Shown here: in pieces, positions 13,783 to 30,281 of the stretch
How positions within the stretch are numbered: the stretch's first letter is position 1
How the letters are laid out: every line of letters starts with the position of its first letter
Source of the DNA: an uncultured Anaerolineaceae bacterium
Lineage (GTDB): Bacteria; Chloroflexota; Anaerolineae; Anaerolineales; Anaerolineaceae
Length of the DNA: 35,656 nt
Assembly: GCA_927443345.1 (NCBI GenBank)
Contig: CAKMKJ010000050.1
Span: 1 to 35,656, forward strand
Direction of reading: 5' to 3'
The notes under the pieces: generated by a model
Databases searched by the model: none
Told to the model about the DNA's origin: nothing
What the model saw: only the letters and a program-made list of their open reading frames with translations
Position numbers and translations under genes: made by a program

Positions 13783-14778
13783 TTACTTTGCAGGTCTGGT
13801 TAATTCTTCTACGGCGCTGGCCGGGGATCGCTTGCGCGAATAAACCGCATCCATTACCCGAGAAATATTTTCTGTTGATACTTGTGCTTTCCAATTTTGC
13901 ACCAGCGTGTGGCGCAATAAATGGTCAAATTCATCCATTAGTCGTTCACGTTCACGGTGGGCCAACAAACCGGTTTTCTGCAAATAATCGCGGTGACTCG
14001 CAATCGCATTAATTAACTCAGGAAAACCCGTTTCTTCGGTGGCAATGGTCTTGATCACTGGAGGAACCCACTCCTCGGAATTAACTATGGTGTTTTCTTC
14101 TTTAAACTCGCCATGCCCAGCTTTGCCGTTGACACGATGAGAGTATCCCAATTCAAGGTTGGCGCGTAATGCACGCTCAGTGTTTTCAATGCCAGGTCGG
14201 TCTGCCTTGTTGACCACCAGAATGTCGGCAATTTCAAGTATGCCGGCTTTAATCGCCTGAATGTCGTCACCCATGCCTGGGCTTTCAACCACTATAGTCG
14301 TGTGCGCGAGCCGTGCAATATCTACTTCAGATTGTCCTGCACCGACCGTCTCAATAAGGATCAGGTCATAACCCGCCGCATCCATCAATTGCACCACTCC
14401 GGCAGTCGTGCGTGCCAGACCGCCCAATTCTCCGCGCGAGGCCATCGAACGGATGAACACGCCGGGGTCTCCAGAAAGGTCGCGCATTCTGACCCTGTCA
14501 CCCAAGATAGCACCGCCAGTGAATGGGCTGGAGGGATCAATGGCGACAATAGCAACGGTTTGTTTGCCTTCCCGTCTGATCAACTGGGCCAACCTGTTGA
14601 CCAGCGAAGATTTGCCGGTTCCAGGAGCTCCAGTAACGCCTATGAGATGGGCTTTACCAGAGCGGGGGAAACAACCATCCAGCGCGGTTTTACCTGCACT
14701 GGTCTCATTTTCCACTTCGCTGATCAGGCGTGATAACGCCAATTTATCTGCAGCGGAGAGGAGGTCTGAGGATTTCAT
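13783..14778 (-). CDS. meaB: Methylmalonyl-CoA mutase-associated GTPase MeaB
   Basis: MeaB is the G-protein chaperone that loads and protects adenosylcobalamin in methylmalonyl-CoA mutase. The 331-residue protein has Walker A GAPGTGKSS (50-58), VAIDPSSPFTGGAILGDRVRM, the G3 region ETVGAGQSEVD and the NKAD guanine-specificity motif. It lies 20 bases downstream of the mutase B12-binding subunit, which supports the mutase assignment over other members (ArgK-like, IcmF-type). The ATG has only a weak ribosome binding site, so translation may be coupled to the upstream gene. Confidence 0.95.
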   Translation of the reverse strand: MKSSDLLSAADKLALSRLISEVENETSAGKTALDGCFPRSGKAHLIGVTGAPGTGKSSLVNRLAQLIRREGKQTVAIVAIDPSSPFTGGAILGDRVRMRDLSGDPGVFIRSMASRGELGGLARTTAGVVQLMDAAGYDLILIETVGAGQSEVDIARLAHTTIVVESPGMGDDIQAIKAGILEIADILVVNKADRPGIENTERALRANLELGYSHRVNGKAGHGEFKEENTIVNSEEWVPPVIKTIATEETGFPELINAIASHRDYLQKTGLLAHRERERLMDEFDHLLRHTLVQNWKAQVSTENISRVMDAVYSRKRSPASAVEELTRPAK

Positions 14779-14798
14779 TAATTCATGCGCTCACAATC

Positions 14799-15200
14799 TC
14801 AGGCGATGTGGGCAAAAGACTTGACGTCTTCAATCACCGTAACCGTTGAAGTACCCGGGCCGTAAACTGCATTAACCCCGGCAGCTTTTAGCACTGCTAC
14901 GTCTTCTTCAGGGATTATGCCGCCCACGAAGAAACCAACATCCGTGAGACCCGTTTTTCTGACCGTATCAATCACTTTTGGCACCAACACCAGGTGGGCA
15001 CCTGACAGAATGGACATGCCTATGACATCCACGTTTTCTTGTACGGCTGCTTCTGCGATCATCTCCGGAGTTTGGCGCAAACCGGTGTAGATCACTTCCA
15101 TGCCGGCATCGCGTAAAGCACGCGCGATGACTTTCGCTCCACGATCATGCCCATCCAAACCAGGTTTTGCGATCAAGACACGAATTTTACGATCCGCCAT
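14799..15200 (-). CDS. Methylmalonyl-CoA mutase small subunit, cobalamin-binding domain
   Basis: This 133-residue protein is a standalone B12-binding domain. The DxHxxG motif DGHDRG has His18 as the lower axial cobalt ligand; MSILSGAH and the terminal VYGPGTS motif complete the cobalamin site. It should pair with a separate large (catalytic) subunit to interconvert methylmalonyl-CoA and succinyl-CoA; that subunit is not in this window. The start at 15200 follows GAGGAGAG; ten upstream in-frame residues are possible but unlikely. It is the first gene of the operon reaching mutM. Confidence 0.94.
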
Positions 15201-15229
15201 TGAGCTCTCCTCACGAATTGATGTTAACA

Positions 15230-15235
15230 ATTATA
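15230..15235 (-). promoter_or_regulatory. -10 box of the mutase-meaB-aspS-prs-mutM operon
   Basis: A perfect TATAAT on the minus strand lies 29 bases upstream of the ATG at 15200. A GTGACA (15256-15261) is present but at 20-base spacing, longer than ideal. The start would be near 15223. Confidence 0.55.
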
Positions 15236-17658: not shown

Positions 17659-18762
17659 ATGCCTGCAATCTATCCATTTACTGCAGTTGTTGGTCAGGAA
17701 CGTATGCGGCGCGCGCTGGTCTTAAACGCCGTTGATCCCCGCATTGGCGGTGTATTAATCCGTGGAGAACGCGGAACTGCCAAATCTACAGCCGCGCGTG
17801 CGCTGGCTGCCCTGCTGCCTTCAGTAAAAACGGTTGAAAACTGCCGTTTTAGCTGTGACCCTGACCGACCCGCCACCTGGTGCACCGAATGCCGCGACCG
17901 CAGCGCAGCCGGTGAACAGTTGAAATCTGTTTCAAGACACACCCCCTTCATCAATCTGCCAGTTTCAGCCACTGAAGACCGCGTGGTTGGCACCCTGGAT
18001 ATTGAGAAAGCCATTCAAAAGGGTGTCAGAGCCTTTGAGCCTGGCGTGCTGGCTGCTGCCAACCGCGGATTGCTATATATTGATGAAGTCAACCTGCTGG
18101 ATGATCACGTGGTGGATGTGCTGCTGGATGCCGCCGCAATGGGTGTCAACAACGTTGAACGTGAAGGGATTTCATTCACCCATCCCTCCCGCTTTATATT
18201 AGTGGGCACCATGAACCCCGAAGAAGGCGATTTGCGCCCACAACTGCTAGACCGCTTCGCTCTTTCCGTTGAAATTAGCGGTATTCGTGACGCACGCGAA
18301 CGTGTAACGATTATGGAACGCAACCTGGCCTTTGAAGCCGATTCTGTGGTTTTTAGAAAAGACTTTGAAGGCAAAGAAGAAGAACTTTCTGAGCAGATCG
18401 AAAAAGGCCGTCACCTGGTTGACCAGGTAACCCACACCAAACAAAATCTGCTTTCGATTGCCGCACTGACCTCTTCATTAAATGTTGACGGCCACCGTTC
18501 TGACCTGGTGATTCTAAAGACTGCGCGAGCGCAAGCAGCTTTTGACGGCCGCACCTCCATTACAGACCGTGATATTGCCCTGGCCGCCGAACTGGCCCTG
18601 CCACACCGCCTCAAGAGCGGCCCCTTCCAACGCGAAGAGATGGGCATGGAAGAACTGCAGGAGCGCATTGAACAGCTCTCAGGCGGAACACCAAGCGGTG
18701 CCAATCAACCATCCACCTCTGAATTGGGTGACGAAGAGTCTTCATCCCCAAAAAAAGCGTAA
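17659..18762 (+). CDS. chlD: Metal-chelatase AAA+ subunit (ChlI/BchI-like), zero-frame product of the chlD frameshift gene
   Basis: The 367-residue zero-frame product is the AAA+ ATPase part of a magnesium/cobalt chelatase. It opens YPFTAVVGQERMRRAL, has Walker A GERGTAKST (36-44), four Cys (62, 66, 75, 78) in a CRFSC...WCTEC cluster, Walker B LLYIDEVNLL (137-146), the GTMNPEEGDLRPQLLDRF sensor region and a C-terminal LPHRLKSGPFQ segment. It ends K-K-A-stop at 18762, just after a run of seven A. The VWA half follows in the -1 frame with no start codon of its own that has a ribosome binding site. Reading through by a -1 slip would give a fused 695-residue ChlI-VWA protein, the usual form of CobN-type chelatase medium subunits. 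The short product alone would act as the small ATPase subunit. The large subunit (CobN/ChlH) is not in the window. Confidence 0.92.
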   Translation: MPAIYPFTAVVGQERMRRALVLNAVDPRIGGVLIRGERGTAKSTAARALAALLPSVKTVENCRFSCDPDRPATWCTECRDRSAAGEQLKSVSRHTPFINLPVSATEDRVVGTLDIEKAIQKGVRAFEPGVLAAANRGLLYIDEVNLLDDHVVDVLLDAAAMGVNNVEREGISFTHPSRFILVGTMNPEEGDLRPQLLDRFALSVEISGIRDARERVTIMERNLAFEADSVVFRKDFEGKEEELSEQIEKGRHLVDQVTHTKQNLLSIAALTSSLNVDGHRSDLVILKTARAQAAFDGRTSITDRDIALAAELALPHRLKSGPFQREEMGMEELQERIEQLSGGTPSGANQPSTSELGDEESSSPKKA

Positions 18763-18780
18763 CGCCGGAACAAGCCGGCG
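18750..18780 (+). promoter_or_regulatory. Programmed -1 ribosomal frameshift signal
   Basis: The zero-frame codons are cc-A AAA AAA gcg TAA, so bases 18750-18756 form the slippery heptamer A AAA AAA. A stop follows one codon later. After a six-base spacer (18757-18762) comes a perfect hairpin, CGCCGG (18763-18768) with CCGGCG (18775-18780) around a six-base loop. A weak purine-rich GAAGAG (18733-18738) sits 11 bases upstream, where a stimulatory Shine-Dalgarno is expected. A -1 slip enters an open frame beginning S-V-T-P-E-Q that leads without stops into the VWA domain. Frameshifting in chlD has been reported in other genomes (I. Antonov, Mol. Biol. Evol. 2020, from memory). Confidence 0.85.
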
Positions 18781-19745
18781 AACAAACCCCGGAACAAGGG
18801 GAGCCGCAACCCTCCCCCCAAAATGTGTTTGATAAAAACGACGCCTTCTGGTGGACGGGTGGTCAAAAGACACCTGTTGGCGAGGAGTTTAATCCCCGTA
18901 AACTGGATACACCGTTGGACAAGATGATGCGTTCTTATGCAGGCAGGCGCTCTGTGACCCGCACCGAACGCAAACGAGGGCGCTATATCCAATCTACCCC
19001 GGCCAACGGACGCACCAACGACCTGGCCTTTGACGCCACCATTCGTGCAGCGGCGCCTTTTCAGCGCGACCGTCGTGAAATCCGCGAACGCAACAAAGTA
19101 GCCTTCGCCATTCGTCCCGGCGATTACATGAAAAAAATCAGAGTACGCAAAGCAGCAAACCTGATTCTGTTTCTGGTGGATGCTTCGTGGTCAATGGCAG
19201 TGGCTGAACGCATGGCTGCCACCAAAGGCGCCATCCTCTCGTTGCTGACGGATGCTTATCAGCGGCGTGACCGGGTGGGATTAATCGTATTTCAAAAGAA
19301 CAAAGCCACACTGGTGCTGCCGCCAACCAACTCAGTGCTGCTGGCACAAGAAGCTTTAGCTGATGTACCGGTGGGTGGCAAAACACCGCTCAGTGCGGGT
19401 TTGCTGATGTCTTATGAAGTACTGAAAAGGGAAAAGAATCTGCACCCCGAAATCATGCCGCTGCTGATCATCCTCACCGATGGTGCAGGTAATGTTTCAA
19501 TCGGTCACCAACCACCTCAGGAAGAAGCCTTTAAGTTCGCCGAAATGATCGCCAAGGATAAAGTCCATTCTGTGGTGATCAACATGGAGCACGCCGCCTT
19601 TGATCAGGGGTTGGCTCAGGCCCTGGCTGACCATCTCAACTGCCCATGCTATACCATCACCGACCTGAAAGCTGAAAGTTTGTTTGTGACGGTTCAACAA
19701 GAAATTCGACAAGTTAATGCCAACCCACCGATGGATTTCAAATAA
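18756..19745 (+). CDS. chlD: Metal-chelatase linker and VWA domain (ChlD/BchD-like), reached by -1 frameshift
   Basis: This is the -1-frame continuation, 329 residues. It begins with a Pro/Glu/Gln-rich linker (TPEQAGEQTPEQ...), typical of the joint between the ATPase and integrin-like halves of ChlD. A basic segment (RTERKRGRYIQS) and a conserved block (RERNKVAFAIRPGDYMKK) follow. The VWA domain has the MIDAS motif DASWS at 19179-19193 (Asp508, Ser510 and Ser512 of the fused protein) and ILTDGAGN further on. With the upstream ATPase it would form the medium subunit that couples ATP hydrolysis to metal insertion by the large subunit. An internal GTG at 18825 or ATG at 18823 (another frame) lacks a ribosome binding site, so separate initiation is less likely. 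A plain frameshift mutation is excluded only by the match to a complete slippery-site signal. Confidence 0.88.
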   Translation, partial: SVTPEQAGEQTPEQGEPQPSPQNVFDKNDAFWWTGGQKTPVGEEFNPRKLDTPLDKMMRSYAGRRSVTRTERKRGRYIQSTPANGRTNDLAFDATIRAAAPFQRDRREIRERNKVAFAIRPGDYMKKIRVRKAANLILFLVDASWSMAVAERMAATKGAILSLLTDAYQRRDRVGLIVFQKNKATLVLPPTNSVLLAQEALADVPVGGKTPLSAGLLMSYEVLKREKNLHPEIMPLLIILTDGAGNVSIGHQPPQEEAFKFAEMIAKDKVHSVVINMEHAAFDQGLAQALADHLNCPCYTITDLKAESLFVTVQQEIRQVNANPPMDFK

Positions 19746-20183: not shown

Positions 20184-21248
20184 ATGGAAGATATAACACC
20201 GTTTTTGCTTTCATTATTATCGAAACCAGGGATTTCTGGTTACGAAGAATCGGTGAGTGAAATCATAGCAGATAGATGGCGCCCGCTGGTAGATGAGCTG
20301 ACCATCAGTCCGCTGCGTAGTTTGCACGGCTTGCGCAAAGCTGCGACAAACGAGAGGCGACCAACATTGATGATCGCCGCCCACATGGATGCCATCGGCT
20401 TGATGGTGAAGACTATTAATCATGGTTTCTTTACCATCACCACAGTTGGAGGCATTGATCCGCGTGTACTGCCGGGGCAACTGGTAACTGTTCATGGCAA
20501 AAAAGAATTACCCGGTCTGGTGCAGTTAATGCCCGACAGGTTACTCAACAACGAGACCGCCAGCAAAGCCCCCACCAAAAATCAACTATTTGTCGATACC
20601 GGTCTGACACAAAAAGAACTCGCTGACCTGGTAAAACCTGGCGACCTGATCTCATTCGCACAGCCGCCTTTCGAAATGACGGGGGGGTATATCGCCGGTC
20701 ACAGCCTGGATAACCGCGCCTCCGTGGCAGCGCTTACGCTTTGCCTTGAAGAGATTAAGAATTACAACCTGGATTGTAATGTAGTGGCCGCAGCCACCGT
20801 TCAAGAAGAATTGCATGGCATAGGGGCAGCCACATCCACTTTCAGCGTACGCCCTGACCTGGCCTTTGCGGTGGATGTCACCTTTGCCAAAGGACCCGGG
20901 TCGAACGACTATCGCACTTTTTCGCTGGGAGAAGGCCCTGCCATCGGGTTAGGCGCAAACAATCACCCGGCACTGACCCAAAAAATGACCTCTTTGGCCG
21001 AAGAGTTGGATATTCCCTATTTTATAGAAGCCATGCCGACCAGTTCTGGAACGGATGGCATGGCTATGCAAATCACAGCAAATGGCATTCCCACACAGGT
21101 GCTAAGTATGAGCCTGCGCTATATGCACACCTCTGTTGAAATGACCTCTCTCAAAGATATAGCACGGACTGGCCGATTGCTGGCACGTTTTATCACTGAC
21201 CTCAACCCAGACTCTTTTTCTAAACTGTTTGAGGAGAAAACCTTATGA
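20184..21248 (+). CDS. M42-family aminopeptidase (copy 1)
   Basis: M42 peptidases are dinuclear metallo-aminopeptidases that form large tetrahedral (TET) dodecamers and trim peptides after proteasome-like degradation. This 354-residue copy has AAHMDAIG (metal His67 and catalytic Asp69), HSLDNRAS (bridging Asp), VQEELHGIG (catalytic and metal Glu), FAVDVT (metal Asp) and RYMHTSVEM (metal His), so the active site is complete. A short AGGGA-like site precedes the ATG. The stop overlaps the next M42 gene by four bases (ATGA). Confidence 0.93.
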   Translation: MEDITPFLLSLLSKPGISGYEESVSEIIADRWRPLVDELTISPLRSLHGLRKAATNERRPTLMIAAHMDAIGLMVKTINHGFFTITTVGGIDPRVLPGQLVTVHGKKELPGLVQLMPDRLLNNETASKAPTKNQLFVDTGLTQKELADLVKPGDLISFAQPPFEMTGGYIAGHSLDNRASVAALTLCLEEIKNYNLDCNVVAAATVQEELHGIGAATSTFSVRPDLAFAVDVTFAKGPGSNDYRTFSLGEGPAIGLGANNHPALTQKMTSLAEELDIPYFIEAMPTSSGTDGMAMQITANGIPTQVLSMSLRYMHTSVEMTSLKDIARTGRLLARFITDLNPDSFSKLFEEKTL

Positions 21249-22327
21249 GCCCTCAGACTAAACAAGTTTTGCGTGTTGGCAAAGCCCAACTTGACCTGCT
21301 TGAAGAGTTAACCAATGCCAACGGCGTTTCTGGCAACGAGATAGAAATCCGCGAAATCATCCGCAAAAAAGTCGCCCCATTCGCGGATGAAATTAAAGTG
21401 GACGGCATGGGTAACTTGCTGGTGATCAAACATGCCAAAAAACCCAATGCCATCAAGGTCATGCTGGATGCTCACATGGATGAAGTCGGCTTTATGATCG
21501 TTGAAGAAGACGGTGATGGCCTGTATGAATTTGAACATGTTGGCGGCGGTGATGAACGCCAGTTCGTTTCAAAGCCGGTGAGCGTTGGCAGCCAAAAGCT
21601 GCCGGGTGTCATCGGCAGCAAACCCATTCACCTGGCAAGTGAAGATGAAATGAACGCAGTCATTTCACAGCAAGGCATGCGTATTGACCTTGGTCCTGCA
21701 GGCAAGGGTAAAGCCAAACGTGGTGATTACGCGGCGTATGCCACCAAATTTATCCGTTCAGGTGACGCCATCTTTGCCAAAGCGCTCGACAACCGTCTGG
21801 GCTGCGCAACCTTGATCGAATTATTGAAAACCGCGCCGGAACATATTGAACTGCTGGCGGCCTTTACCGTTCAAGAGGAAATTGGTCTGCGCGGTGCAAA
21901 GGTAGCTGCTTACGATTTTTACCCCCAAATGGCCATCGCCGTGGATTCCACGCCCGCCTTTGACTTTGAGCGACCGGATGGCAATGAGAACACTGAATAT
22001 AACTGCAAACTTGGTGGCGGACCTGCGATTTACATTGCTGATCGCGGCACCCTTTCAGACCCGCGCTTGATCCGCTTTTTGACCCAGGTGGCCGAAGAAA
22101 ACAAGATCAATTATCAATACCGTCAACCCGGCGGCGGTGGCACGGATGCCGGCGCGCTGCATCTGACGCGCGGAGGTATTCCTTCGGTATCGGTGTCGGT
22201 TCCAGGCCGTTATGCTCATACTGCGGTGATGCTGGCCCGCATCAGTGACTGGCAAGATACGCTAAATCTGCTGCAGCAAGCCCTCGCGGCTTGGACCCCT
22301 GAAATCCTCTCTGGCGACCGGGCATAA
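21245..22327 (+). CDS. M42-family aminopeptidase (copy 2)
   Basis: This 360-residue paralogue has LDAHMDEVGFM, KALDNRLG, TVQEEIGLRG, AVDSTPAF and RYAHTAVM, the full set of M42 metal ligands and catalytic residues, and NANGVSGNEIEIR at the N-terminus. The ATG overlaps the stop of copy 1, and GAGGAG lies upstream inside copy 1, so translation is coupled. Specificity (Glu/Asp, Leu or Lys) cannot be read from the sequence with confidence. Confidence 0.94.
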   Translation: MSPQTKQVLRVGKAQLDLLEELTNANGVSGNEIEIREIIRKKVAPFADEIKVDGMGNLLVIKHAKKPNAIKVMLDAHMDEVGFMIVEEDGDGLYEFEHVGGGDERQFVSKPVSVGSQKLPGVIGSKPIHLASEDEMNAVISQQGMRIDLGPAGKGKAKRGDYAAYATKFIRSGDAIFAKALDNRLGCATLIELLKTAPEHIELLAAFTVQEEIGLRGAKVAAYDFYPQMAIAVDSTPAFDFERPDGNENTEYNCKLGGGPAIYIADRGTLSDPRLIRFLTQVAEENKINYQYRQPGGGGTDAGALHLTRGGIPSVSVSVPGRYAHTAVMLARISDWQDTLNLLQQALAAWTPEILSGDRA

Positions 22328-22351
22328 TCCCCGCCAGGAATTGGAGCTGAA

Positions 22352-23344
22352 ATGAAAACCCTTCTCAAGAAACTCACCGAAACAGCCTCACCTTCAGGAT
22401 ACGAATCTGCGATTCGCGAAGTGATCCGGGCGGAAATTTCTTCACTATCTACTAATATCAAAGTTGATGCACTTGGCAACCTGATTGTGACGATGGGGAA
22501 GAAAACTGACAATGGACTGCGCGTGATGATTGCCGCTCATATGGATGAGATCGGTGTAATCGTCAGCTATGTAGAAAAAACAGGATTGGTGCGTTTTTCA
22601 AACCTGGGCACTATTTTGCCGCAATACCTTGCCGGCAGCCGGGTGGTTTTTCTGAACGGCGCCCGTGGCGTTATCAACCATGACCTACCGGATGATCTAC
22701 ACAAGATTATGCCTCTCAATAAACATTTCATTGATGTCGGCGCAACCAGCGACAAAGATTGCCTCCTCAAAATTGGCGACGTCGGTGTTATTGACCGCAG
22801 CTTTGTTGACTTAGGAAAAAGGGTATCCGCCAAATCGATGGATGACCGTGTTGCTTGCGCCGTTATGATTGAGACGATGAAAAAAATCAAAAACAATCCA
22901 CATGAACTGGTTTTTGTATTCAGTACACAAGAAGAAGTGCAATGCAAAGGTGCCACAACCGCAGCTTATGAGATCGAACCAGACCTCGGCATTGCGCTTG
23001 ACGTGACGCCATCACTCGATATTTTAGGTATCAAGATGCAGGTTGATCTGGGCAAAGGCCCTGCCATCAAAGTGCGAGATATGGGCATGTTGAGTGACCC
23101 ACGCGTGGTAAGTTGGATGGAAAGCACCGCCAAAAAGAACAAAATAGCCTATCAACTTGAAGTGTTGGATGTTGGCACCACGGATGCAAAAGTGATGCAG
23201 ATTAGCAAAGCGGGTTTGCCCTCCGGAGCGCTTTCTATCCCCTGCAGATATGTGCATTCGCCCTCCGAAGTTGTCGACATGGATGATGTGCAAGCGACAG
23301 TGAACCTCTTAAGCGCGTTATTGAATAATCCGATCAGTTTATAA
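22352..23344 (+). CDS. M42-family aminopeptidase (copy 3)
   Basis: This 330-residue copy has TASPSGYESAIREV at the N-terminus, AAHMDEIGVI, KSMDDRVAC, STQEEVQCKG, IALDVTPS and RYVHSPSEV, so the active site is intact. It is shorter than copies 1 and 2. A GGAG precedes the ATG by six bases, 24 bases after copy 2. Three consecutive M42 genes suggest subunits with different specificities or a mixed TET particle. Confidence 0.94.
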   Translation: MKTLLKKLTETASPSGYESAIREVIRAEISSLSTNIKVDALGNLIVTMGKKTDNGLRVMIAAHMDEIGVIVSYVEKTGLVRFSNLGTILPQYLAGSRVVFLNGARGVINHDLPDDLHKIMPLNKHFIDVGATSDKDCLLKIGDVGVIDRSFVDLGKRVSAKSMDDRVACAVMIETMKKIKNNPHELVFVFSTQEEVQCKGATTAAYEIEPDLGIALDVTPSLDILGIKMQVDLGKGPAIKVRDMGMLSDPRVVSWMESTAKKNKIAYQLEVLDVGTTDAKVMQISKAGLPSGALSIPCRYVHSPSEVVDMDDVQATVNLLSALLNNPISL

Positions 23345-27347: not shown

Positions 27348-30281
27348 ATGCACCGTGTAATCTTAGTCGTTTCACCAGATACCGAGTTTTTACAACAATT
27401 GCGTTCTCACCTTGAAGAAGGTGGACGCTATCAAGTGTCTGTCGCATTAAGTGCACATGAAGCTCTAAATCTGGCCAATAGTAATTTCTTTGAAGTGGCA
27501 ATCGTGGATGGAGAATTGGACGACATTCCGGTAGCTGCCTTTACAAGAGATCTTACGGCCTTACAATCTGATTTAAAAATCTTGGTCTTCCCGCCTGATA
27601 ACAATCCACAACATCCGGTGTTGGATGGAATGGCTATCAACGGTTTCTTAACCAAACCCTTCTCAGGTCAGGAAATTGGTAAAGCATTATCAAGTCTATT
27701 TTCAGATCAACCCTTGCCAAATAATATGCAGGTTAAAGAGGTGGATGATCTGGTCAAGCAATGGCTGCAAATCCCCGAGACAGGCGGAAAAAAAGCAGAA
27801 CAGATCCTCAAAGCCACGTCAGCCCAAACGATTTTAATAATCATTAAAGATCAAGTAATTGCCAATGCAGGTCCAATGGATGACGGCCTGGTGACGAATG
27901 TAACTGGCTTCTTATCACGCTATTGGAAAGACGAAGAAAACAGTGAACTTGCTCGTTACATAAAACTGGATGGTGACGGCAGTGATCAATTCTTGTACGC
28001 TACCAAACTGGTAAGCAATCTGGTACTGGTGATGGTTTATCCAATGAAAGCCACGATCCAACTGGTTCGGCGTGAATTGAATAATGTCAAAGATGATTTT
28101 CAGAAACAGTATCCCACTACAAGTGAAATAAAGCAGGATCTAGCCAAATATGTACTCGCTGGTATCAATGTAAGAAACAAGGTACTTGAAACACTGCAGA
28201 AAGATAGCAATACTTTTTCACAAGACGATATAGATGCTTTGGGTCAATTGAACCAACAAGCAGAAAATACCGGCGCTATTTCTCAAGCTGAACTTGAAGC
28301 GCGTAAACTATTTGAACAAGAATCGTTAATTTCAAAGCCCAAACCAACGATTAATGCGATTTCTCAAGAAGAAATTGATTTATTGAAGGCTTTACAGAAT
28401 GAACCATCACAACCTGCCGTAGATAGTGTTTCACAAGCCGAGTTGGATGCAAAAAAATTATTTGAACAAGAATCAGTAAAACCAAAACCAATGATTGCTG
28501 GTATTTCTCAAGAAGAGATTGATTTTTTGAAAGCCATGCAAAATGCACCAACTCAGTCCGCAGTAAATGCCGTTTCACAAGCCGAGTTGGAAGCACGCAA
28601 GCTTTTTGAACAGGAATCAGTAAAACCAAAACCAATGATTGCTGGTATCTCTCAAGAAGAGATTGATTTGTTGAAAGCCATGCAAAATGCACCAACTCAG
28701 TCCGCCGTAGATAGTGTTTCACAAGCCGAGTTGGAAGCACGCAAGCTTTTTGAACAGGAATCAGTAAAACCAAAACCAATGATTGCTGGTATCTCTCAAG
28801 AAGAGATTGATTTGTTGAAAGCCATGCAAAATGCACCAACTCAGTCCGCTGAAAATGCCGTTTCACAAGCCGAATTGGATGCACGTAAGCTTTTTGAACA
28901 GGAATCAGTAAAACCAAAACCAATGATTGCTGGTATTTCTCAAGAAGAGATTGATTTGTTGAAAGCCATGCAAAATGCACCAACTCAGTCCGCAGTAAAT
29001 GCCGTTTCACAAGCCGAATTGGATGCACGTAAGCTTTTTGAACAAGAATCAGTAAAACCAAAACCAATGATTGCTGGTATCTCTCAAGAAGAGATTGATT
29101 TGTTGAAAGCCATGCAAAATGCACCAACTCAGTCCGCAGTAAATGCCGTTTCACAAGCCGAATTGGATGCAAAAAAATTATTTGAACAGGAATCCTTAAA
29201 CAAAACAACAGTTACTTCAAATGATGTCTCACAGGTGGAGTTGGATGCCCTTAATCTGGCTAACCAGGCATCGGTAACACCTGAAAGTGTTAACCCGGCT
29301 AATATCAGTGAGCAAGAATTGGCGCAGTTATCAAAGCTGCTTGAACAAATGCCAACACCGGATCCACAATCTGAGGGCGAGACTGCTGTTGAAGATAAGA
29401 AACTTCCCGAATGGTTAAATGAACTCGAAACAGCAGATAATATAACCCAATCTTCAGTCGCCAATAACGCAGAGCCTATGGCAAACACACCCATTGGAAT
29501 ATCACCATTTTTAGAAATAGACGAAAATCTGAAAACATCCCTTGAAAAGGGAGAACCCTTACCAGAGATTGATTTCACGCTGCCTTGGGAAATAGAAGAA
29601 ACCCCCGTTCAAACGGTCGTAGAAATAACTGCCGATCGAATCATTGAGGCAAAGACTGACGATACTCTTAAACCAGTAATTGAGCAACCTGTTGCATTGG
29701 TTGAGGCAGTTGGTGAAGCCGCTATTGAAGCATTACAGCCTACACCAACATCGTTTGCAGAAGTGTTAAACGCGGTTGCTCCGCAAGTAGAAACCGCTCC
29801 TGCAACGGTTGAATCGGCAGCTTCTCCTGCGCCAGAATCCGTTGTAATGGAGGAACCTGCAACCCCGCCTGCCCCTCCCAGTCTGAAAGATTTTCGATTT
29901 AACTACACCCTGGTTTTGTTGCCCGGGGACCGCAACCAATTTTTGACGAAAAATCTTTCTGATAAATTAAGTGCGATCATGCCAGACATCCATGAAGACC
30001 AGGGATGGAAAATGACCAGCATCACTGTCCGTCCGCAATATCTGCTTTGGACGGTTGCAGTATCCATGGGTATCTGCCCCAAACAAATATTGAATGAAGT
30101 CCGCAATCTCACTTCAAACGCAATTTTTGCCGCATTCGCAGAAATCGCCAAAACAAAAAAATCCAACGATTTCTGGTCATCTGAATATCTGGCGGTCAGC
30201 GGTTCTGAACCAGCTCCAGCCAATTTGGTCTTTGATTTCGTCAAAACTGCCTGGAAGACACCCGAAACCGTCACTGCCTGA
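27348..30281 (+). CDS. Receiver - Roadblock/LC7-like - SQxEID-repeat - inactive IS200-transposase-like protein
   Basis: This 977-residue protein is unlike any single family I know. Residues 1-120 look like a response-regulator receiver domain: Asp54 (AIVDGELDD) and Lys103 (FLTKPF) are kept, but the acidic pair is Ser9-Pro10 and the Thr/Ser switch is replaced by Phe81, so it is degenerate. Residues about 125-245 resemble a Roadblock/LC7 domain (ILIIIKDQVIANAG; LVSNLVLVMVYPMKATIQLV). Residues 291-633 hold fifteen SQxx(I/L)(D/E) motifs, starting at Ser291 and ending at Ser628, like the N-terminal CheY-binding peptide of FliM. Residues 670-845 are an acidic, Pro/Ala-rich linker. Residues 848-970 resemble an IS200/Y1 transposase, but the HUH motif position reads PQYLLW and the helix that should hold the Tyr reads DFVKTAW, so no DNA cleavage is expected. 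It is 24 bases upstream of polA. Domain calls are by eye. Confidence 0.7.
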   Translation: MHRVILVVSPDTEFLQQLRSHLEEGGRYQVSVALSAHEALNLANSNFFEVAIVDGELDDIPVAAFTRDLTALQSDLKILVFPPDNNPQHPVLDGMAINGFLTKPFSGQEIGKALSSLFSDQPLPNNMQVKEVDDLVKQWLQIPETGGKKAEQILKATSAQTILIIIKDQVIANAGPMDDGLVTNVTGFLSRYWKDEENSELARYIKLDGDGSDQFLYATKLVSNLVLVMVYPMKATIQLVRRELNNVKDDFQKQYPTTSEIKQDLAKYVLAGINVRNKVLETLQKDSNTFSQDDIDALGQLNQQAENTGAISQAELEARKLFEQESLISKPKPTINAISQEEIDLLKALQNEPSQPAVDSVSQAELDAKKLFEQESVKPKPMIAGISQEEIDFLKAMQNAPTQSAVNAVSQAELEARKLFEQESVKPKPMIAGISQEEIDLLKAMQNAPTQSAVDSVSQAELEARKLFEQESVKPKPMIAGISQEEIDLLKAMQNAPTQSAENAVSQAELDARKLFEQESVKPKPMIAGISQEEIDLLKAMQNAPTQSAVNAVSQAELDARKLFEQESVKPKPMIAGISQEEIDLLKAMQNAPTQSAVNAVSQAELDAKKLFEQESLNKTTVTSNDVSQVELDALNLANQASVTPESVNPANISEQELAQLSKLLEQMPTPDPQSEGETAVEDKKLPEWLNELETADNITQSSVANNAEPMANTPIGISPFLEIDENLKTSLEKGEPLPEIDFTLPWEIEETPVQTVVEITADRIIEAKTDDTLKPVIEQPVALVEAVGEAAIEALQPTPTSFAEVLNAVAPQVETAPATVESAASPAPESVVMEEPATPPAPPSLKDFRFNYTLVLLPGDRNQFLTKNLSDKLSAIMPDIHEDQGWKMTSITVRPQYLLWTVAVSMGICPKQILNEVRNLTSNAIFAAFAEIAKTKKSNDFWSSEYLAVSGSEPAPANLVFDFVKTAWKTPETVTA
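28344..29207 (+). repeat. 144-bp coding tandem repeat, six units
   Basis: Inside the 977-residue protein, a 144-bp (48-residue) unit is repeated: a diverged unit at 28344-28487 and five units from 28488, 28632, 28776, 28920 and 29064 (the last diverging after about 130 bases). Each unit encodes one ISQEEIDLLKAMQ motif and one VSQAELDARKLFEQ motif, 23 residues apart. Units differ by few bases, including the alternates VDSV, VNAV and ENAV, which points to recent duplication or gene-conversion-like homogenisation. The reverse strand also stays open here, but only as a by-product of the repeat. Confidence 0.95.

Follow-up and report, generated by a model that had tools for sequence, protein, structure and literature searches.

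The window is a stretch of 35,656 nt that makes up the entire contig C50 of genome G000 (completeness 98.8%). We examined a two-frame gene within it, all features of which lie on the forward strand. The zero-frame ORF (17659-18762) codes for a 367-aa AAA+ ATPase product, a ChlI-like half assigned from the ORF list and from Pfam and TIGR02442 matches. Its last codons are CCA AAA AAA GCG TAA. The sequence thus reads as an A7 run at 18750-18756 in the register A_AAA_AAA and a zero-frame TAA stop at 18760-18762, which would give the short product a K-K-A terminus. A spacer of 6 nt separates the run from a 3′ RNA hairpin with a perfect 6-bp stem (18763-18780), built from the arms CGCCGG (18763-18768) and CCGGCG (18775-18780) and the loop AACAAG. 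The -1 frame (18756-19745) encodes a linker and a VWA domain and stays open until a stop at 19743-19745; joining the ATPase and VWA halves at A7 yields 695 aa. The junction therefore has the parts of a canonical -1 signal: an X_XXY_YYZ heptamer in zero-frame register with a 3′ structure at 6 nt. A sequence-only reading had described the A7 register, the stop, the 6-nt spacer, the 6-bp hairpin and the open -1 frame, and its account was exact on re-reading.

The hairpin is the minimum free energy structure for the 40 nt 3′ of A7 (-11.8 kcal/mol). Its z-score varies with the window chosen: placing the window start 0-5 nt beyond A7, at lengths of 40 or 60 nt, gave values from -1.7 to -4.3, with -4.3 at the +5 start. 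Two features weigh against a ribosomal reading: the short length of the hairpin and a z-score of just -1.78 for the plain 40-nt window. Folding 60 nt added a possible second small hairpin (CCCC/GGGG, 18787-18801) that is absent from some relatives and appears optional. An Rfam search returned two matches (E 1.3 and 1.7), both far under gathering scores. The earlier description of the spacer as very short does not hold, as 6 nt sits inside the 5-9 nt range given as common to many studies in the available text of PMC5009743. The weak upstream GAAGAG that it put forward as a stimulator is GAAGAC in L174, L175 and L242. We found no conserved GAAGAG across close relatives that could act as an optional 5′ Shine-Dalgarno-like stimulator.

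We compared the junction with its counterparts in 12 named MAGs (L174-L184 and L242), which are titled Chloroflexi or Anaerolineaceae bacterium and are 78-97% identical to the window VWA half. All 12 carry A7 in the identical register, a stop at the matching place and an identical stem; the stop codon is TGA or TAG in L181, L182 and L184. Across these 13 sequences, the stem bases are invariant at 12/12 positions, compared with 15/45 other nearby bases. The third codon positions show the same pattern, with 4/4 invariant in the stem and 0/15 invariant nearby outside it. Over the VWA half as a whole, 22/329 third positions are invariant (11 rows). This invariance points to selection on the RNA and not on the protein alone, and it is this comparison that carries the case for the hairpin because the z-score of the window sequence is weak and window-dependent. 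A-runs of this length are also rare elsewhere in these genes: the non-linker sequence of 140 class genes (254,028 nt) holds 12 runs of at least 7, and base-shuffling the linkers produced such a run in 1.9% of cases. The sequence-only reading had predicted that A7 and the hairpin would be kept in relatives while flanking codons drift, and the alignment bears this out. We conclude from these comparisons that the cassette is real and under selection. Conservation likewise supports the proposal of a selected -1 slippage site with two predicted products, a 367-aa ATPase and a 695-aa ATPase-VWA protein.

Profile searches placed the gene in a published family. The ATPase half matches PF01078 (ChlI ATPase, E 1.3e-13) and PF17863 (AAA lid, E 1.2e-16), and the -1-frame half matches PF13519 (VWA, E 2.4e-11). 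The joined product barely passes the TIGR02442 cut-off (779.6 bits against 779.45). Each half alone falls short of it, with 504.4 bits for the ATPase half (positions 1-343) and 262.6 bits for the other. The ATPase half scores 424.6 bits with TIGR02030 (BchI; cut-off 466.95) and the joined product 437.3 bits with TIGR02031 (BchD; cut-off 499.55), both under threshold. Frameshifted chlD genes (fs-chlD) have been described by Antonov et al. 2013 (PMC3711429) and Kuznetsov et al. 2022 (PMC9227772). The window gene has the hallmarks of this group: halves in overlapping frames, a ChlD-type joined product, a conserved poly-A site and a downstream structure. It is a new member of the fs-chlD family and an ordinary representative of it. 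According to the available text of the same two papers, fs-chlD has already been reported in Chloroflexi, in Herpetosiphon, Brevefilum fermentans, Anaerolinea thermophila, Ornatilinea, Longilinea and Levilinea.

The earlier suggestion that the two products are chelatase subunits fared less well. The genome has no match to PF02514 (CobN/ChlH large subunit), the single profile with which we checked the chlorophyll pathway, and none to PF01903 (CbiX) or PF01888 (CbiD), the two B12-pathway markers we tried. PF02514 is matched in just 36/298 class genomes. A search for a separate bchI/chlI, proposed in the same reading, found no second ATPase-half homolog in this 98.8% complete genome at E ≤ 0.001, a lack that the reading had said would fit. 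The lack of a large subunit and of the two B12 markers suggests that the complex probably serves some other client and is not a cobalt or magnesium chelatase. The label "chelatase" is therefore doubtful for this gene, and we tentatively regard its products as an AAA+/VWA machine that acts on a different client. The available text of PMC9227772 states the same gap for genomes that carry fs-chlD without chlH or cobN, where function is not known.

Gene neighborhood did not help to assign a function. We clustered the 1,359 ORFs flanking 141 class loci and found no widely kept neighbor. The largest cluster covered 18/141 loci, and the window is absent from all 13 listed neighbor clusters. We rejected function by neighborhood on these grounds. 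Genes for a B12-binding mutase subunit and a MeaB GTPase lie at 13783-15230 despite the lack of CbiD, CbiX and PF02514 matches, and since the neighborhood is not conserved we note them without drawing a functional inference. Three M42-type aminopeptidase genes stand in a row downstream of chlD (20184-23344). A 977-aa ORF at 27348-30281 contains several near-identical repeats (SQEEIDLLKAMQN...SQAELDARKLFEQES...), which we spotted by eye in the ORF list.

We surveyed the class for split and fused forms of the gene. A search with the ATPase half found matches at E ≤ 0.001, distant AAA proteins included, in 296/298 class genomes; by hand count, about 259/298 hold a close homolog (E < about 1e-96). 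The class-wide search listed 150 matches, from which we analyzed the window and 140 others and left out nine. Among these 141 loci, the VWA half lies in the -1 frame in 104, in the +1 frame in 4 and fused in frame in 32, and one locus (L056) has no VWA. L056 was excluded from run counts. It is a second ATPase gene (G202:C23), 68% identical and without a VWA match; the same genome retains a split A8 gene for which a 9-bp stem is predicted. Every split locus (108/108) carries an A-run of 7-11. A separate set of 80 named loci, which partly overlaps the class sample and was not summed with it, comprised 79 in the -1 frame, 1 in the +1 frame and no fused genes, every one with an A-run of 7-10.

Fused genes also carry the run. 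A-runs of A7-A10 are present in 29/32 fused class genes, and a -1-frame stop lies 0-9 codons from each. At random places in the same genes, a -1 stop that near occurred in 13% of draws for the A7-8 set and 24% for the A9+ set. Slippage at these runs would thus yield a short product, as in dnaX. Codon preference cannot explain the lysine A-run, since AAG is commoner than AAA outside the linker (1,760 and 1,390 codons). Three of the 32 fused class loci lack an A-run; the genes in G076, G044 and G008 have one ATPase-half match at E ≤ 1e-40. Three fused chlD genes of family f11 (L133, L148 and L166) have linkers free of A-runs of at least 6 and group together, set off by a branch whose support is 100. 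A further fused class gene without a run, L259 (52% identical), shares its genome with a split A9 gene (L323). In family f6, 9/9 genomes examined, all of which have a PF02514 match, keep the split gene alongside further homologs that are about 48% identical. The idea that every genome needs the short product is not supported, as fused genes without an A-run occur, including in genomes with a single homolog match.

The slippage sites fell into two classes by run length. In -1 genes, the last A of 45/45 A7-8 sites falls at the third codon position with G as the next base, and the A9 sites are spread over the three phases (24, 13 and 20). Structure 3′ of the run is pronounced at A7-8 sites, with a mean z of -2.78 (n=45, 40 nt from +5) and -2.59 in 60 nt. 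At A9+ sites (n=59), the corresponding means are -0.39 and -0.83. Control windows at -120, -60, +60 and +120 gave mean z of -0.20 to -0.02 for A7-8 and about -0.3 to 0 for both classes. Scoring the lower of the two windows at z < -2, we found structure in 41/56 short runs and 15/81 long runs. Tree-independent pairs joining a short run with structure, 5 of them on starred branches, gave 2.6-2.8 for and 0.1 against at thresholds of -1.5 to -2.5, and 2.0 for and 0.5 against at -1.0; with 5 pairs, too few, this link is not significant. Control windows elsewhere gave 0.4-0.9 for and 0.7-1.1 against. Predicted structures differ by clade. Base pairs changed on both sides number 3/14 in f6, 3/11 in f33, 5/17 in f52, 0/16 in f23 and 1/20 in fused f13, counted without a shuffle control, and double-sided changes occur in 3 of the 4 split clades examined.

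Stops in the other frames follow the same division. Counting stops no more than 9 codons from the run, fused A9+ genes show one in the -1 frame in 19/19 cases and in the +1 frame in 16/19. In fused A7-8 genes, 8 of 10 from one genus, the counts are 10/10 for -1 and 0/10 for +1 (nearest +1 stop at 10). Among split genes, such a stop is present in the third frame for 90% of A9+ genes and 67% of A7-8 genes. Mean anti-Shine-Dalgarno energy in split A7-8 genes dips slightly near the run, to -4.1 to -4.9 kcal/mol compared with -2.6 to -3.6 further upstream. In the fused A7-8 group (n=10, 8 from one genus) it reaches -9.3, a strong Shine-Dalgarno-like signal before the run that resembles the E. coli dnaX set. 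Upstream of A9+ runs (split -1 genes, n=59), four window settings gave mean z of 0.01 to -0.57, which indicates no clear 5′ hairpin. We therefore rejected such a hairpin as a stimulator of transcriptional slippage at A9+. The sole A8 split gene in the +1 frame of the class sample (L155, genome G288) fits neither site class well. Structure immediately 5′ of its run is strong (z -4.85, 30-nt window) and might suit stem-loop-mediated transcriptional slippage.

From the differences in register, 3′ structure and near stops between the two classes, we infer that A7-8 sites, including the window gene, would act by ribosomal frameshifting and A9+ sites by RNA-polymerase slippage. Ribosomal slippage could also operate at A9+, since A9 in any register contains an in-frame A_AAA_AAA. 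In E. coli reporters of chelatase cassettes, frameshifting was 10% at A7, 40% at A9 and 63% at A11 (PMC3711429), values that, in the available text, do not separate the ribosomal from the transcriptional process.

We traced run class and gene arrangement on a tree of 140 rows made by a quick method (LG+G4). By parsimony on this one tree, in which 36/137 inner branches are open, run class requires at least 11 changes over the 137 run-bearing rows, and the fused and split forms interchange at least 14 times over the 140 rows. Counting "no run" as an extra state gave 12 and 17 changes; without it the counts were 11 and 16, or 14 for fused versus split. Split and fused genes are interleaved on this Chloroflexota tree, and in the window's own family (f1) the gene carries A7, A8 or A9.

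The survey outside the class covered 70 loci, of which five have no VWA match, one (L308) gave an unusable frame call, four (L256, L257, L264 and L265) were already in the class sample, and one (L269) is the same gene as L311 and was counted once. In f71, which belongs to another class, 18/18 fused genes examined among the matches listed have a run of A8-A10 and, 0-1 codons beyond it, a -1 stop, and 10/10 split genes examined among the matches listed have A7, A9 or A10. In twelve other families outside the class, 29/29 distinct fused genes examined among the matches listed lack an A-run, which shows that the run is no general feature of fused linkers. The fused genes examined from f69 and f65 have no A-run. 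TIGR02442 at E ≤ 1e-60 has one match in all f69 genomes examined and in 3/4 f65 genomes, with at most 3 candidates scored per genome.

We lean towards a model, drawn from these sequence patterns, in which the feature that Chloroflexota chlD retains is a slippage switch with two products, and not a given arrangement of frames. Ribosomal and polymerase slippage would have repeatedly replaced each other, with the frame flipping between slipping to lengthen and slipping to truncate. Many seemingly ordinary fused chlD genes (29/32 in the class and 18/18 in f71) would then be cryptically recoded in the style of dnaX.

For the window gene itself, we consider it highly probable that it is an fs-chlD whose ribosomal -1 frameshift makes 367-aa and 695-aa proteins, which together are probably not a cobalt or magnesium chelatase. 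Ribosomes would translate the ATPase half up to A_AAA_AAA at 18750-18756, where both Lys tRNAs would occasionally slip one base backward, aided by the hairpin that begins 6 nt downstream. Unslipped ribosomes would terminate one codon on and release the 367-aa ChlI-like ATPase. Slipped ribosomes would cross the Pro/Glu linker into the VWA domain and make the 695-aa ChlD-like protein. By analogy with ChlI/ChlD, both products may join in one AAA+ complex.

We infer a ribosomal rather than a transcriptional mechanism, and the two products, from the features of the site. In principle, A7 could also slip in transcription, with RNA polymerase gaining or losing an A so that altered mRNAs encode the VWA fusion. 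Polymerase slippage is likely in A9-A10 relatives, where the register varies and 3′ structure is weak, and the early stops of fused A9+ genes in both other frames recall the description of Thermus dnaX (PMC5009743). The window run is just A7, in a register suited to tandem tRNA slippage on AAA AAA, and its invariant hairpin is 3′ of the run, where it presumably could not yet exist while the polymerase slips. Fused A7-8 genes, 8/10 of which are from one genus, have their near stop in the -1 frame alone, as a directional shift requires. We consider transcriptional slippage improbable at this gene.

Two further explanations would dispense with slippage, and both are less probable still. The VWA protein could be the product of a second, overlapping gene translated by separate reinitiation. 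An in-frame GTG at 18825 would give a 306-aa protein, and a later in-frame GTG (18954) is preceded by a Shine-Dalgarno-like stretch of -6.5 kcal/mol; the GTG at 18825, however, has no Shine-Dalgarno sequence (+3.7 kcal/mol). We looked for -1-frame start codons from 60 nt upstream of the stop up to the VWA block. Of the 104 split -1 genes, 64 lack one and 40 have one, and a Shine-Dalgarno-like stretch precedes such a start in just 2/104. The numbers are higher in fused genes, for which no start is required in this region (26/32 with a start and 10/32 with a Shine-Dalgarno-like stretch). The scarcity of starts in split genes makes reinitiation very unlikely, and it accounts for neither the A-run nor the stem. 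The split could otherwise be a sequencing error or a pseudogene, in which a base lost or gained in the A-run broke a normal fused gene. Fused relatives exist (32/141 class loci), and most genomes compared are draft assemblies. The sequence-only reading had held that fused relatives without an A-run would mark the site as an error or mutation. Such relatives do occur (3/32 fused class loci, L259, and the 29/29 fused genes examined in the twelve other families), but the window site is not an error on that account, as all 12 close-relative assemblies keep the cassette with the same A7 and frame relation. The -1 split recurs in 104/141 class loci, single-contig genomes (G027, G213 and G228) among them, and the stem is conserved at the RNA level. 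We regard an error or pseudogene as extremely improbable.

The window gene extends frameshift cassettes under selection to one further lineage. More broadly, closely related genes seem to meet one recoding decision by two machines, some with the frame order reversed, and the chlD family thus offers a natural test of how ribosomal and polymerase slippage substitute for one another. Our results also suggest that the annotation of fused chlD genes may be missing a short product. The two-class pattern at the level of the family looks new and testable, with priority subject to Antonov 2020 (MBE), which is reportedly further work on fs-chlD. We found neither this pattern nor recoded in-frame fused chlD in the available text of the fs-chlD literature searched. 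The present data sharpen the question, raised in PMC9227772, of what role an I/D-type AAA+ machine plays where no chelatase large subunit is encoded.

We compared the window gene with known two-product systems. It shares with fs-chlD genes, as these are portrayed in the available text on the family, the two-frame ATPase and VWA halves, the A-run site, the downstream structure and the -1 shift (in fs-chlD the structure is usual and the shift mostly -1). The two-class site pattern and the A-runs with near stops in fused genes are, relative to that text, features of the present class survey. ChlI/ChlD of magnesium chelatase and CobS/CobT of cobaltochelatase similarly pair an AAA+ ATPase with a VWA partner. 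They differ in that the window products come from one gene, score under the TIGR02030 and TIGR02031 cut-offs and have no large subunit that we could find. The closest parallel in logic is dnaX, where one gene yields a short and a long AAA+ subunit through an A-run; both mechanisms and both frame orders have been described (PMC3711429, PMC5009743). The forms on record in these sources are the ribosomal frameshift of E. coli, the transcriptional slippage of Thermus, with near stops in both non-zero frames (PMC5009743), and the two-ORF dnaX seen in Chlorobium. The protein and the complex are different, however, and the C-terminal part of the window product is a VWA domain.
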